From Candidatus Kaiserbacteria bacterium (lineage in GTDB: Bacteria > Patescibacteriota > Minisyncoccia > Phycocordibacterales > UBA2100): a DNA stretch of 40,497 bases. The DNA is taken from NCBI GenBank assembly GCA_016204805.1, contig JACQKA010000039.1, forward strand, positions 1-40,497. Direction: 5' to 3'. The notes beneath the pieces are model-generated. The model searched no databases. It was not told where the DNA came from and worked only from the letters and a program-made list of their open reading frames with translations. This document shows positions 20,817 through 39,688 of the stretch, piece by piece (the first letter of the stretch is position 1; each line of letters begins with the position of its first letter). A program made the position numbers and the translations under genes.

Positions 20817-20857
20817 CAAACACAAAACCTTCCGTAGTACGGAAGGTTTTGTGTTTT
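20817..20857 (+). terminator. Terminator (AACACAAAACCTTCCGTA/GTACGGAAGGTTTTGTGTT)
   Basis: Long perfect stem with T-rich end. Confidence 0.85.
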
Positions 20858-20886: not shown

Positions 20887-20960
20887 GCGGGATTGGTGTA
20901 ATGGCAACACGGCAGTTTTCCAAACTGCAAACGGGAGTTCGATCCTCCCATCCCGCACCA
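20887..20960 (+). tRNA. tRNA-Gly (anticodon UCC), CCA encoded
   Basis: Acceptor GCGGGAT/ATCCCGC, anticodon loop TTTCCAA, 3' ACCA. Confidence 0.93.
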
Positions 20961-20961
20961 A

Positions 20962-20997
20962 ACCAAAGAACCGCCTTAAGGCGGTTCTTTGGTTTGG
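20962..20997. terminator. Bidirectional terminator AACCAAAGAACCGCC-TTAA-GGCGGTTCTTTGGTT
   Basis: Perfect palindrome between tRNA and the convergent HU gene. Confidence 0.9.
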
Positions 20998-21480: not shown

Positions 21481-21567
21481 CTTAGAAACTGTCTAAAATC
21501 TTCGTGGTGCCCAAGGCAGAAAAGCAAGGGTTTCTGCTTGGGGGAAAGATTTTAGACAGTTTCTGAG
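21481..21567. repeat. Long nested hairpin element H
   Basis: AGAAACTGTCTAAAATCTT (21484-21502) / AAGATTTTAGACAGTTTCT (21546-21564) perfect 19 bp; inner CCCAAGGCAGAAA/TTTCTGCTTGGG. Confidence 0.8.
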
Positions 21568-35886: not shown

Positions 35887-36897
35887 CTACTCCATTAAAC
35901 GCTTTTGTTTTGTTTCAAACCCAAGATGCTCATGTGCCTTTTTGGTCGCGGTGCGGCCGCGCGGGGTGCGTTCGATGAGGCCGAGTTGCATTAGGAATGG
36001 CTCATGTACCTCTTCTATAGTGCCTTCTTCTTCTGAAAGTGCGGCCGCAAGTGTCGAAAGCCCCACCGGGCCGCCGCCATACTTTTCGATTATTACATTA
36101 AGCATGTCTCGGTCGTGTTGGGTGAGACCAAGTTCATCTATCTCAAGTTGTGCGAGCGCATTGCGTACAATATCCATTGCGATTGGCTTGCTACTTATCT
36201 GTGCGAAGTCGCGCACGCGCTTCAAAAGATAATTTGCGGTGCGTGGTGTTGCGCGGCTGCGGCGTGCGATTTCCAACAGCGCGTCTTTTGGTGCACCGAC
36301 ATCGAGAATGTTCGCCGAGCGCGCCAGTATCGCGGCTATCTCCGGTTCGTTGTAATACGACAGACGGAACGTTCCGCCTGAAAACCGACTGCGGAGCGGG
36401 GAGGAGAGGAGTGATGGGCGCGTCGTTGCGGCGACAAGGGTAAATGCAGGCAGCTCCAACTGCACCGTGCGCGCGGACGGTCCCTTGCCGATGATGATAT
36501 CGAGCACACCCGATTCCATGGCGGGATACAGCACCTCTTCGATGGTTTTGTTGAGCCGGTGGATCTCGTCGATAAAGAAGACGTCTCCTGTGGATAGGTT
36601 GGTCAGGATGGACGCCAGGTCGCCCACGCGTTCGATCGCGGGGCCGGAAGTCGCTTTTAATTGTGCGCCGATCTCTTTCGCCATCAGGTGTGCGAGGGTG
36701 GTCTTCCCGAGACCGGGCGGGCCGTATAAAAGGACGTGCTCGGGTTGCTCCCCGCGCTCTTTTGCGGCGGTGAGGAGCACGCGGAGGTTCTTTTTAATCG
36801 TCGCTTGGCCCACATATTCATCCCATACAGAGGGGCGGAGCGCCTGGTCGAGCGATCGAAGCGTCTGCGGTGCGTCTTGTTTCTGTTTTTTCACCAT
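35887..36897 (-). CDS. ruvB: Holliday junction helicase RuvB
   Basis: LRPSVWDEYVGQ, LLYGPPGLGKTTLAH, FIDEIHRLN, PRTANYLLKRVRDFAQ. Confidence 0.97.
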   Translation of the reverse strand: MVKKQKQDAPQTLRSLDQALRPSVWDEYVGQATIKKNLRVLLTAAKERGEQPEHVLLYGPPGLGKTTLAHLMAKEIGAQLKATSGPAIERVGDLASILTNLSTGDVFFIDEIHRLNKTIEEVLYPAMESGVLDIIIGKGPSARTVQLELPAFTLVAATTRPSLLSSPLRSRFSGGTFRLSYYNEPEIAAILARSANILDVGAPKDALLEIARRSRATPRTANYLLKRVRDFAQISSKPIAMDIVRNALAQLEIDELGLTQHDRDMLNVIIEKYGGGPVGLSTLAAALSEEEGTIEEVHEPFLMQLGLIERTPRGRTATKKAHEHLGFETKQKRLME

Positions 36898-36977
36898 ACA
36901 TTCATGTATTGACAGTAGCGACAGTGCATGATAGAATCTTCATGGTAATTCTAACACAAACAGACTCGGTTCAGAGC

Positions 36978-37112
36978 TACAAATCTCTCAACGATCGAAA
37001 GTTTTCCCGAGGACGGTGGCGGTCTCCCGCCACGTGCGGCCGTGCGGCCCCTATCCTTAGGTGTGAACTTGTCTTTCGATACCTCATTGAAAGCATCGTT
37101 GAGAGATTTGTA
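36978..37112. repeat. Long hairpin element D
   Basis: TACAAATCTCTCAACGAT (36978-36995) / ATCGTTGAGAGATTTGTA (37095-37112) perfect 18 bp; inner GTGGCGG-TCTC-CCGCCAC. Confidence 0.85.
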
Positions 37113-37178
37113 CCCCCGAATTGCAAAAAGCATCTCTACTGCGCACCGTAGCACCTCCTTGCGAAAAGAAAACTTTCA

Positions 37179-37221
37179 CCCCCACACCAATCGTTTCATA
37201 ATGAAACGATTGGTGTGGGGG
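37179..37221. repeat. Perfect palindrome E
   Basis: CCCCCACACCAATCGTTTCAT-A-ATGAAACGATTGGTGTGGGGG, 21-bp arms. Confidence 0.9.
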
Positions 37222-37290
37222 CATGCTTTTGATACTCAAAGCATTTCGCATTAGCGCAAGCAAACAAATTACTCTGTAATTTTGGTGAAG

Positions 37291-37436
37291 AAACATCCCT
37301 GCGTATAACTTTTTTGGAGCACGCGTCGAAAATCCCAGCGGGATTTTCGCGCTTCCTCTCGCCCTCACTCTCGCTTCGCGAACCGTGCCCGTTCGGGCTC
37401 CGAGAATCTCCAAAAAAGTTATACGCAGGGATGTTT
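37291..37436. repeat. Element F with 29-bp perfect terminal inverted repeats
   Basis: AAACATCCCTGCGTATAACTTTTTTGGAG (37291-37319) / CTCCAAAAAAGTTATACGCAGGGATGTTT (37408-37436); inner CGAAAATCCC-AG-CGGGATTTTCG. Confidence 0.92.
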
Positions 37437-37454
37437 TGTGTGTGCGGGGGCGGA

Positions 37455-37527
37455 GTCGGCATGTCTTTCAAAATGACTAAAGCTTGGGCAAACGCCCTCG
37501 AGTGGTCATTTTGAAAGATATGCCGAC
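37455..37527. repeat. Long hairpin element G
   Basis: GTCGGCATGTCTTTCAAAATGAC (37455-37477) / GTCATTTTGAAAGATATGCCGAC (37505-37527), 1 mismatch in 23; inner GGGC-AAAC-GCCC. Confidence 0.9.
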
Positions 37528-37538
37528 GGAGCGATTTT

Positions 37539-39227
37539 TCAAGCATCACCACCAATCTCTTCCTCGATGTTCACCGTACGTTCGACTTCGTCTATTGACG
37601 TGATACCCCTCAAAACCTTAACGATGCCGTCCTGCGGCATGCGGCGGATCTGTTGCCGTGCAGATGCGCGCCAGATCTCGCGCTCGCTCGATGTCGCGCG
37701 AACCGTCTTTTCCATCTCCTCGTCCATAAAAATAGCTTCGACGATGCCGATGCGGCCTTTGTAACCGATACCACCACACCTCTCGCACCCTTTTGGTACC
37801 CACATCATCGTGCGGTTCTCCGGGAGGTCTTCGGGGTGGGGGATGTTTTTGAGCATACGCTCCACATTCTCTTTATTCTTGCCTTCGATTGGCGCTGTTT
37901 CGCGGCAGTGTTCACATAAACGGCGCACCAAGCGCTGTGCCATCGCGATGTTGACCGATGAACCGAGGATCTCTGCCTGGATACCCATGTCGATGAGGCG
38001 GGGGAAGGTTCCGGCGGCGTTGTTGGTGTGGAGCGTCGAGAAGACGAGATGGCCGGTCAGTGCGGCGTGGACGGCGGTCGAAGCGACCTCGCCATCGCGG
38101 ATTTCGCCCACCATGATGATGTCCGGGTCTTGGCGCAATGTAGAGCGGAGTCCCTGGGCGAAAGAATAATTTTTAGAAACTTGCGTCTGCACGATGCCCG
38201 GGAGGTGATATTCGATAGGGTCCTCGATAGTTACTATCTTTACGCCTGGTTTATGCACCGCACGCAAGAATGCGTAGAGCGTCGTCGTCTTACCGGAACC
38301 GGTAGGACCAGTGTTCAGTATCATACCGTTCGGCCGTTCGATCTCTTTCAAGAAAATCTCCATCAGGTATTTATCGAAGCCGAGCTTTTCAAGCGAAAGT
38401 CCGATCGTTGTGGGGTCGAGCACACGCATCACCACCGTCTCGGCATAGTTCCCGGGCAATATCGAAGTACGTATCTCGATCTCTTTTTGATTAACTACGA
38501 TAGAGAACCGGCCGTCCTGCGCCGCGTTTTTGATATTCAATTTCAATCCCGAAAGCAGTTTGATACGCGATGCGATCATCCCATATGTTGTGTGGTCAAA
38601 GGTGAGGAGTTCGTTCAACACACCGTCGAGTCGATATCGCATGCGCACGTACGCCTCTTCGGGTTCCAGGTGCACGTCGGATGCGCCGAGCGAAAGTGCA
38701 CCGGCCATAATGATCTCCAAGACGCGCGAAATGCGGTGGGTGTCTTTGCTCCCAATGTTTTCGTGTACGTGGTCGGAGACATCTTTAACACTTTTCAATT
38801 CAGAAAGCATCTTCTGGATAGCGTCGTTTGAAATGGTGAGCACACCCGCTTCGGTCTCGGTCGCCATCGACAAGTCGCGGTAACGGTCCCACGCATGGAG
38901 GAGCGATGCCTGGGACACCATAAAGCGGCGGACCTGATACCCGAGACGCTCTAAGTTTGCGATCGTTTGGAGCGAGTTCGCGCGTTCTGGCGCACGCATG
39001 GCGACGAACAGGCGCTTGCCGATCTTCCTAAACGCGGCGACTTCCGAATCGTGTGCTTCTTGTTCAGGCACAAGCTGGAGCGCATCGGTGTCTATGGATT
39101 TGCTGGTGAGGTCGGTGTATTCGACGCCATATTTGCCGGCGAGCATTTTCGCCAACTCTTCTTCCTCGCGCCTGCGGAGCTGTTCTATGCGCTCGTCGCT
39201 TTTTTGGTCATGGAACTGGGTCGTCAT
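37539..39227 (-). CDS. PilB/GspE-family type IV pilus/secretion ATPase
   Basis: NTGPTGSGKTTTLYAFL, EDPIEYHLPGIVQTQV, LRQDPDIIMVGEIRD, HTNNA; start set at MTTQFHDQ. Confidence 0.93.
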   Translation of the reverse strand: MTTQFHDQKSDERIEQLRRREEEELAKMLAGKYGVEYTDLTSKSIDTDALQLVPEQEAHDSEVAAFRKIGKRLFVAMRAPERANSLQTIANLERLGYQVRRFMVSQASLLHAWDRYRDLSMATETEAGVLTISNDAIQKMLSELKSVKDVSDHVHENIGSKDTHRISRVLEIIMAGALSLGASDVHLEPEEAYVRMRYRLDGVLNELLTFDHTTYGMIASRIKLLSGLKLNIKNAAQDGRFSIVVNQKEIEIRTSILPGNYAETVVMRVLDPTTIGLSLEKLGFDKYLMEIFLKEIERPNGMILNTGPTGSGKTTTLYAFLRAVHKPGVKIVTIEDPIEYHLPGIVQTQVSKNYSFAQGLRSTLRQDPDIIMVGEIRDGEVASTAVHAALTGHLVFSTLHTNNAAGTFPRLIDMGIQAEILGSSVNIAMAQRLVRRLCEHCRETAPIEGKNKENVERMLKNIPHPEDLPENRTMMWVPKGCERCGGIGYKGRIGIVEAIFMDEEMEKTVRATSSEREIWRASARQQIRRMPQDGIVKVLRGITSIDEVERTVNIEEEIGGDA

Positions 39228-39247
39228 CCTTGTTATTGTAACACTCA

Positions 39248-39688
39248 ATGGAGGAGACCATATTCGGCGCGGATTCGATGTATCGCCACGCGGCGGATTT
39301 CGTGCGCAGGCTTGTACCGGGGGAGGCGGCGATTGTCGTGGGGCTTCAAGGTGATTTGGGCGCAGGGAAGACGACTTTTTTTCAGGGTGTTGCACAGGCG
39401 CTTGGTGTGAGAGAGCACACGACGAGCCCCACATTCGTCATACAAAAATCCTACAAGCTCTCGGGTCAACCCTTCCACAACCTCATTCATATAGACGCAT
39501 ATCGGCTCAAGGAGGCACATGAGCTCGAAGTACTTGGCTGGCACGATATCGTGAAAGATCCACACAACCTCATTTTTATCGAGTGGCCGGAGCGCGTGTC
39601 TGGCATCCTTCCCAAAAATGCAGTCATACTGAAATTTCGTTTTATAGACGAGCAGACTCGAGGAGTCGAGCGAGTGACAGGGGTGTGA
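39248..39688 (+). CDS. tsaE: tRNA threonylcarbamoyladenosine biosynthesis ATPase TsaE
   Basis: VGLQGDLGAGKTTFFQGVAQALGV, SPTFVIQKSY, HIDAYRL, FIEWPERV. Confidence 0.93.
   Translation: MEETIFGADSMYRHAADFVRRLVPGEAAIVVGLQGDLGAGKTTFFQGVAQALGVREHTTSPTFVIQKSYKLSGQPFHNLIHIDAYRLKEAHELEVLGWHDIVKDPHNLIFIEWPERVSGILPKNAVILKFRFIDEQTRGVERVTGV

Follow-up and report, generated by a model that had tools for sequence, protein, structure and literature searches.

Results

The gap between pilB and ruvB

The window analysed here is a stretch of 40,497 nucleotides from Candidatus Kaiserbacteria (contig JACQKA010000039.1), whose source genome (G000) amounts to 748 kb in 71 contigs and is 79.6% complete. Near one end of the window, ruvB and a gene for a pilB-like T2SSE/MshEN ATPase, both on the minus strand, enclose a gap that holds four inverted repeats (E1 to E4; Table 1), and the true start of pilB may lie inside the open frame listed there. 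The initial annotation had reported these four stems, and all of them were recovered in two ways, by a repeat search and by a separate stem finder, with the same coordinates. It had also judged that chance could hardly account for them and, in fact, no such stem appeared in first-order Markov shuffles of the window (5 trials, 40 kb each). The sequences of the stems are as unrelated as had been claimed, given that nothing common to all four was found on comparison, and the nested inner hairpins expected in at least three elements are present in E1, E3 and E4. Fold prediction, which had been suggested as a check, returned z = -14 for the 611-nt stretch, and each of the four elements folds far below shuffled sequence (z = -7 to -12).

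Table 1. Genes and sequence elements in and around the pilB-ruvB gap of the window
Feature	Position	Strand	Description
ruvB, flanking	35887..36897	-	RuvB_N, RuvB_C and AAA_lid_4 domains, all far above cut-off
sigma70-type promoter	36909-36937	+, divergent from ruvB	TTGACA-N17-TAGAAT; 11/12 consensus matches, TG before -10
E1 core	36977..37113	+	137 nt; P1 closing stem, P2, P3, variable distal hairpin, P4 hairpin
E1	36978/37112	+	18 bp perfect stem; 26 at 88%
E2	37179-37221	.	21 bp perfect stem, 1-nt loop; 43-bp perfect palindrome
E3	37291/37436	.	29 bp perfect stem; 88-nt loop holding nested hairpins
E4	37455/37527	.	23 bp stem, 1 mismatch; 27-nt loop; 11 nt from pilB stop
pilB-like T2SSE/MshEN ATPase, flanking	37539..39434	-	T2SSE E=2e-114, MshEN E=4e-7

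Long perfect inverted repeats are not rare in this genome. In 410 kb sampled from G000 we counted 47 of them (score of at least 16), 28 of which lie mostly outside open reading frames of at least 100 aa, according to a crude gene count. Because the genome is rich in such stems, the cluster between pilB and ruvB is unusual mainly by its density, and has to be explained element by element. Additional long perfect inverted repeats are found in the window around tRNA-Gly, at 20818-20856, 20958-20997 and 21484-21564, and the first two of these resemble bidirectional terminators. Elsewhere in G000, a group I intron scores above the Rfam cut-off (L027:7319-7510).

Conservation of E1

Of 30 family loci, 23 carry an E1-like element upstream of ruvB, in which the closing stem differs and the core is the same. 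All 23 elements sit behind a TTGAC..TANNNT site directed away from ruvB. The rod made of P2, P3 and the distal hairpin carries a near-invariant AGGA...UCCU core, P3 being CC.AGGA/UCCUYAGG, and P4 is a small hairpin on the 3' side. At the class level, TTGACA or TTGACT, a 17-nt spacer and a TANNNT box occur within 110 nt upstream in 16 of 19 matches.

The paired positions change together. In an alignment of 21 family elements (A1), 24 of 36 pairs show two-sided changes, and 92% of the cells pair, whereas slid controls reach 37-45%. In a class-wide alignment of 28 sequences (A4), two-sided changes affect 32 of 40 base pairs (16-25 in slid controls) and cover all 19 pairs of P1, 87% of the cells are paired versus 39-44% in slid controls, and the observed covariation value was reached by none of 500 shuffles. 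Searches used a model R1 and a model R2, the latter built from A4, and covariance models match the E1 of the window at 101.6 and 108.1 bits. Judging from these comparisons of sequence, E1 is almost certainly a genuine structured RNA gene. Of the hairpin-array non-coding RNA proposed at first, the RNA holds for E1 alone, where the comparative evidence is strong, and the array does not.

R1 matched 49 of the 68 family genomes, in all six genera and with a single site in each genome (a handful of additional rows repeat that site on the opposite strand), and it also found members beyond the family, and in genomes named Kaiserbacteria, Nomurabacteria, Yonathbacteria and Zambryskibacteria. Class-wide, R2 matched 49 of 143 sampled genomes, from 41 of 124 genera, and added Ryanbacteria and Sungbacteria to the hosts. 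At all 19 class-level loci examined, pilB and ruvB flank the match on either side, wherever the genes are in reach; this synteny represents independent support, because the model contains no gene information. The RNA was absent at Chloroflexi and Firmicutes ruvB loci, and was found here only in Patescibacteria-type genomes. Five relatives (G010, G017, G047, G052 and G054) have no E1 upstream of ruvB and no copy elsewhere according to the model, and have probably lost it, even though these are incomplete drafts in which single absences weigh little. Being missing from some relatives, the RNA is not universally essential.

Transcription and mode of action of E1

The promoter in front of E1 is predicted to drive a plus-strand transcript containing the 137-nt core, which would fold into a long closing stem, the P2-P3-distal rod and the small 3' hairpin. 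In several relatives (loci L109, L154, L156 and L248) a T tract follows immediately on the 3' arm of P1, which allows this stem to double as a terminator; in the window, P1 has no clear U tract behind it. From the promoter and, in relatives, the terminator, we infer that E1 RNA is made as a discrete transcript. Such a structured RNA could bind protein and act in trans, and it is toward a role in trans that we lean, with some reservation.

It is also possible, although we consider it rather doubtful, that E1 works in cis, either as a leader of ruvB or as an antisense RNA, with the overlap of divergent or antisense transcripts tuning ruvB or pilB. The strict class-wide synteny beside ruvB would agree with such a function, and so would the finding that the reverse complement of the E1 of the window folds equally well and could be part of the ruvB 5' leader; furthermore, several relatives show, by eye, -10-like sites towards ruvB beyond the RNA. 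The conserved promoter, however, is directed away from ruvB, the non-Watson-Crick pairs in the RNA (50 G-U versus 23 A-C) favour the plus strand, and in several relatives the plus-strand RNA has its own terminal U tract.

Palindromic repeats between E1 and pilB

E4 is a short-loop copy of a dispersed palindromic repeat, here called family A, for which a pattern search found 11 copies in G000 and none in the 67 other family genomes searched. In 12 aligned copies the loops, 33 or 88-89 nt from GAC to GTC, are 93-96% identical, whereas the 18 innermost stem positions show a mean identity between copies of 60%. The copies share, in addition, a flank preference for CGCTWC...TCCGCT. Family A is like REP elements in comprising several short, intergenic palindromes with a shared consensus, but this consensus is strong in the loop rather than in the stem. 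As many as 212 of 216 stem pairs are Watson-Crick, and none is G-U on the strand that was scored; of the four exceptions, three are by eye A-C, hence G-U on the other strand. Because RNA-level selection usually tolerates G-U, as in E1, the arms of family A appear to be kept complementary at the DNA level, and they would co-evolve there around a fixed loop. Template switching between arms, for example, would maintain their complementarity. How both arms of a palindrome change together while the loop stays constant is the question that this family raises.

We also considered whether RAYT-like enzymes mobilise family A. Five Y1_Tnp genes are present in G000 (C48, C13, C14, C15 and C11; L147-L151), with open frames of 225-246 aa, and no mobiliser emerged from the comparison, since none of the five has a family A copy next to it. 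Three near-identical AAATTCGGGTTT hairpins were noted near the Y1_Tnp gene of L151.

The other two elements are less easily placed. The arm of E2, CCCCCACACCAATC, is family-B-like and recurs at L017:8447, and related CCSCACACC arms are found in other elements, which suggests, more weakly and on arm sequence only, that E2 belongs with the dispersed palindromes. Families B and C are further dispersed palindromes of the family A design. Family B palindromes were found at L018:16675, L131:10349, L134:195, L134:2458 and other sites; their outer arms are CCCGCACACC, and their loops measure approximately 91-99 nt. For E3, no second copy was found in a whole-genome DNA search of G000 or in the fetched loci. 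A relative carries in the same gap, beyond E1, a perfect stem of 25 bp that encloses nested hairpins and is E3-like in design (L046:2827-2943), and the two have only the 11-mer CTCACTCTCGC in common. The search of each arm against the genome that had been proposed was positive for E4, which is dispersed, and for the recurring arm of E2, and left E3 as a single-copy element. The suggestion of nested MITEs or mobile repeats fares likewise, in that it agrees with E4 (at least 12 dispersed copies), agrees less with E2, and meets in E3 an element without a second copy.

E2 to E4 are probably palindromic DNA repeats, which would have accumulated in the stretch from the E1 RNA to the pilB stop, and E2 may in addition serve as a terminator. 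On either strand E2 resembles a terminator by its score, with a weak tail, and the E1 transcript may stop there. It is unlikely that all three are mainly transcription terminators or mRNA 3'-end hairpins instead of mobile or dispersed repeats, in spite of the score of E2 and of their placement between the pilB stop and E1: E3 and E4 are without a proper U tract, and the common conserved loop and flank preference of the family A copies would be needless for terminators.

E1 and known RNAs

Of 4227 families in Rfam 15, none matched the E1 of the window or its homologues with the thresholds that were applied, any hits being at chance level or well short of the cut-off. The matches returned in the gap were weak, nearly all of them to eukaryotic miRNA hairpins far below the cut-offs, and are chance matches of long stems.

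Because of its closing stem and 3' hairpin, E1 was examined as a 6S RNA. RF00013 gave no match at E<=10 in the gap of the window or in E1-bearing loci. In the class, on the other hand, weak full-length RF00013 matches with a GGGCACCCACCUG block were found at a locus other than E1, and two genomes (G146 and G169) carry both this 6S-type RNA and E1. The 6S hallmark 15-mer was found in six family genomes, among which G004, G005, G009, G043 and G055 also have E1 elsewhere; a search for it in G000 was negative. E1 is not the 6S gene, since genomes with E1 hold a 6S-type RNA at a separate locus. The class 6S-type RNAs, which fall below the Rfam cut-off (L232:1501-1653, L233:1501-1636, L234:1501-1638 and L069/L236), could be used to extend the 6S model, and at least two of them lie, by eye, near an apparent nucleoside-diphosphate kinase gene.

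The small SRP RNA model (RF00169) had no match at E<=0.01 in 39 family genomes, G000 included, compared to matches in 11 of 14 control genomes, and it may be that SRP RNA is strongly diverged or absent in this family. No Ffh was seen in the stretches sampled, the sample being incomplete and the absence hence uninformative. Because RF00169 found nothing in these 39 genomes, a diverged SRP RNA was considered for E1, and it was rejected when a motif scan of the fetched loci for SRP helix 8 (tetraloop and AGCAG asymmetric loop) detected none within E1.

That E1 might still be a strongly diverged housekeeping RNA (SRP, 6S, RNase P or tmRNA) missed by the Rfam models is, in our opinion, improbable. 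Its length, which we take to be too short for RNase P or tmRNA, and its architecture, presumably unlike either, do not encourage this explanation, and the GGGCACCCACCUG hallmark in a 6S-type RNA at a separate locus, together with a core free of any helix-8-like motif, also speaks against it. The five relatives without any E1 copy would moreover be surprising for an essential RNA. In its favour are the single site per genome with a long, 6S-like closing stem, and the silence of the SRP model in this family. We retain it as a minor alternative because known RNAs can hide below thresholds, RNase P being the precedent in this radiation (PMC8172020).

A description of the E1 RNA was not found in the open-licence papers on 6S, SRP and structured RNAs of CPR/Patescibacteria. 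Within that literature, E1 would be a new structured RNA family.

Discussion

The gap between pilB and ruvB very probably contains two unlike things, namely an RNA gene, E1, and three palindromic DNA repeats, E2 to E4. Comparison of the syntenic gap in relatives, recommended by the initial annotation, went against a single unit; since relatives retain E1 without E4, the four elements are not one unit. That they form together one functional array, be it a hairpin-array RNA, a set of recombination sites of the attC kind or a nucleoid site, is barely credible in spite of the close spacing of the stems and of loops in E1 and E3 that are alike in size, as E1 is class-wide but family A, E4 included, is absent from 67 relatives, at least 11 copies of family A besides E4 exist in the source genome, and the four elements share no sequence. 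The earlier proposals of an attC/integron, origin or nucleoid site gained no support, as the stem of E1 varies, its core is conserved, and it occurs in single copy at one locus class-wide, and no feature of an integron or an origin was noticed in the course of the analysis; an RNA that is syntenic and confined to one site, next to repeats that are dispersed, gives no reason to suspect an attC/integron.

An RNA that is supported by covariation and kept between two genes across a reduced, mostly uncultured class would be a rare clue to RNA biology in the candidate phyla radiation, and one that is directly testable in metatranscriptomes. We would go as far as to speculate, while thinking it unlikely, that E1 founds an RNA class of this radiation with a core cellular role that known RNAs do not fill. 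If that were true, its partners might be, for example, the transcription, secretion or DNA-uptake/recombination machinery, and its hosts would be organisms without Rfam-detectable SRP RNA.

Both kinds of element can be compared with known systems. Family A is like REP/BIME elements with their RAYT (Y1) transposases in being short, palindromic, dispersed and mostly intergenic, in a genome with Y1_Tnp genes; it differs from them because its stems vary among copies, with conservation limited to the loop, and because the Y1_Tnp genes have no family A copy as a neighbour. With MITEs it shares inverted repeats round a short non-coding core and the presence of several copies, although from copy to copy its terminal repeats are little conserved, and no cognate transposase came to light. 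E1, on its part, is comparable to 6S RNA (RF00013) in size, in being structured and confined to one site per genome, in having a closing stem that the RNA ends form and a sigma70-type promoter, and in the small hairpin that an internal loop bears on its 3' side, but it is unmatched by RF00013 and lacks the GGGCACCCACCUG block. Unlike the catalogued structured RNA motifs, it corresponds to no Rfam 15 family at the thresholds tried, and it was found here in Patescibacteria-type genomes only; E1 resembles the candidate bacterial structured RNA motifs of the Rfam kind, as it is intergenic, covarying, of wide phylogenetic span and of unassigned function.
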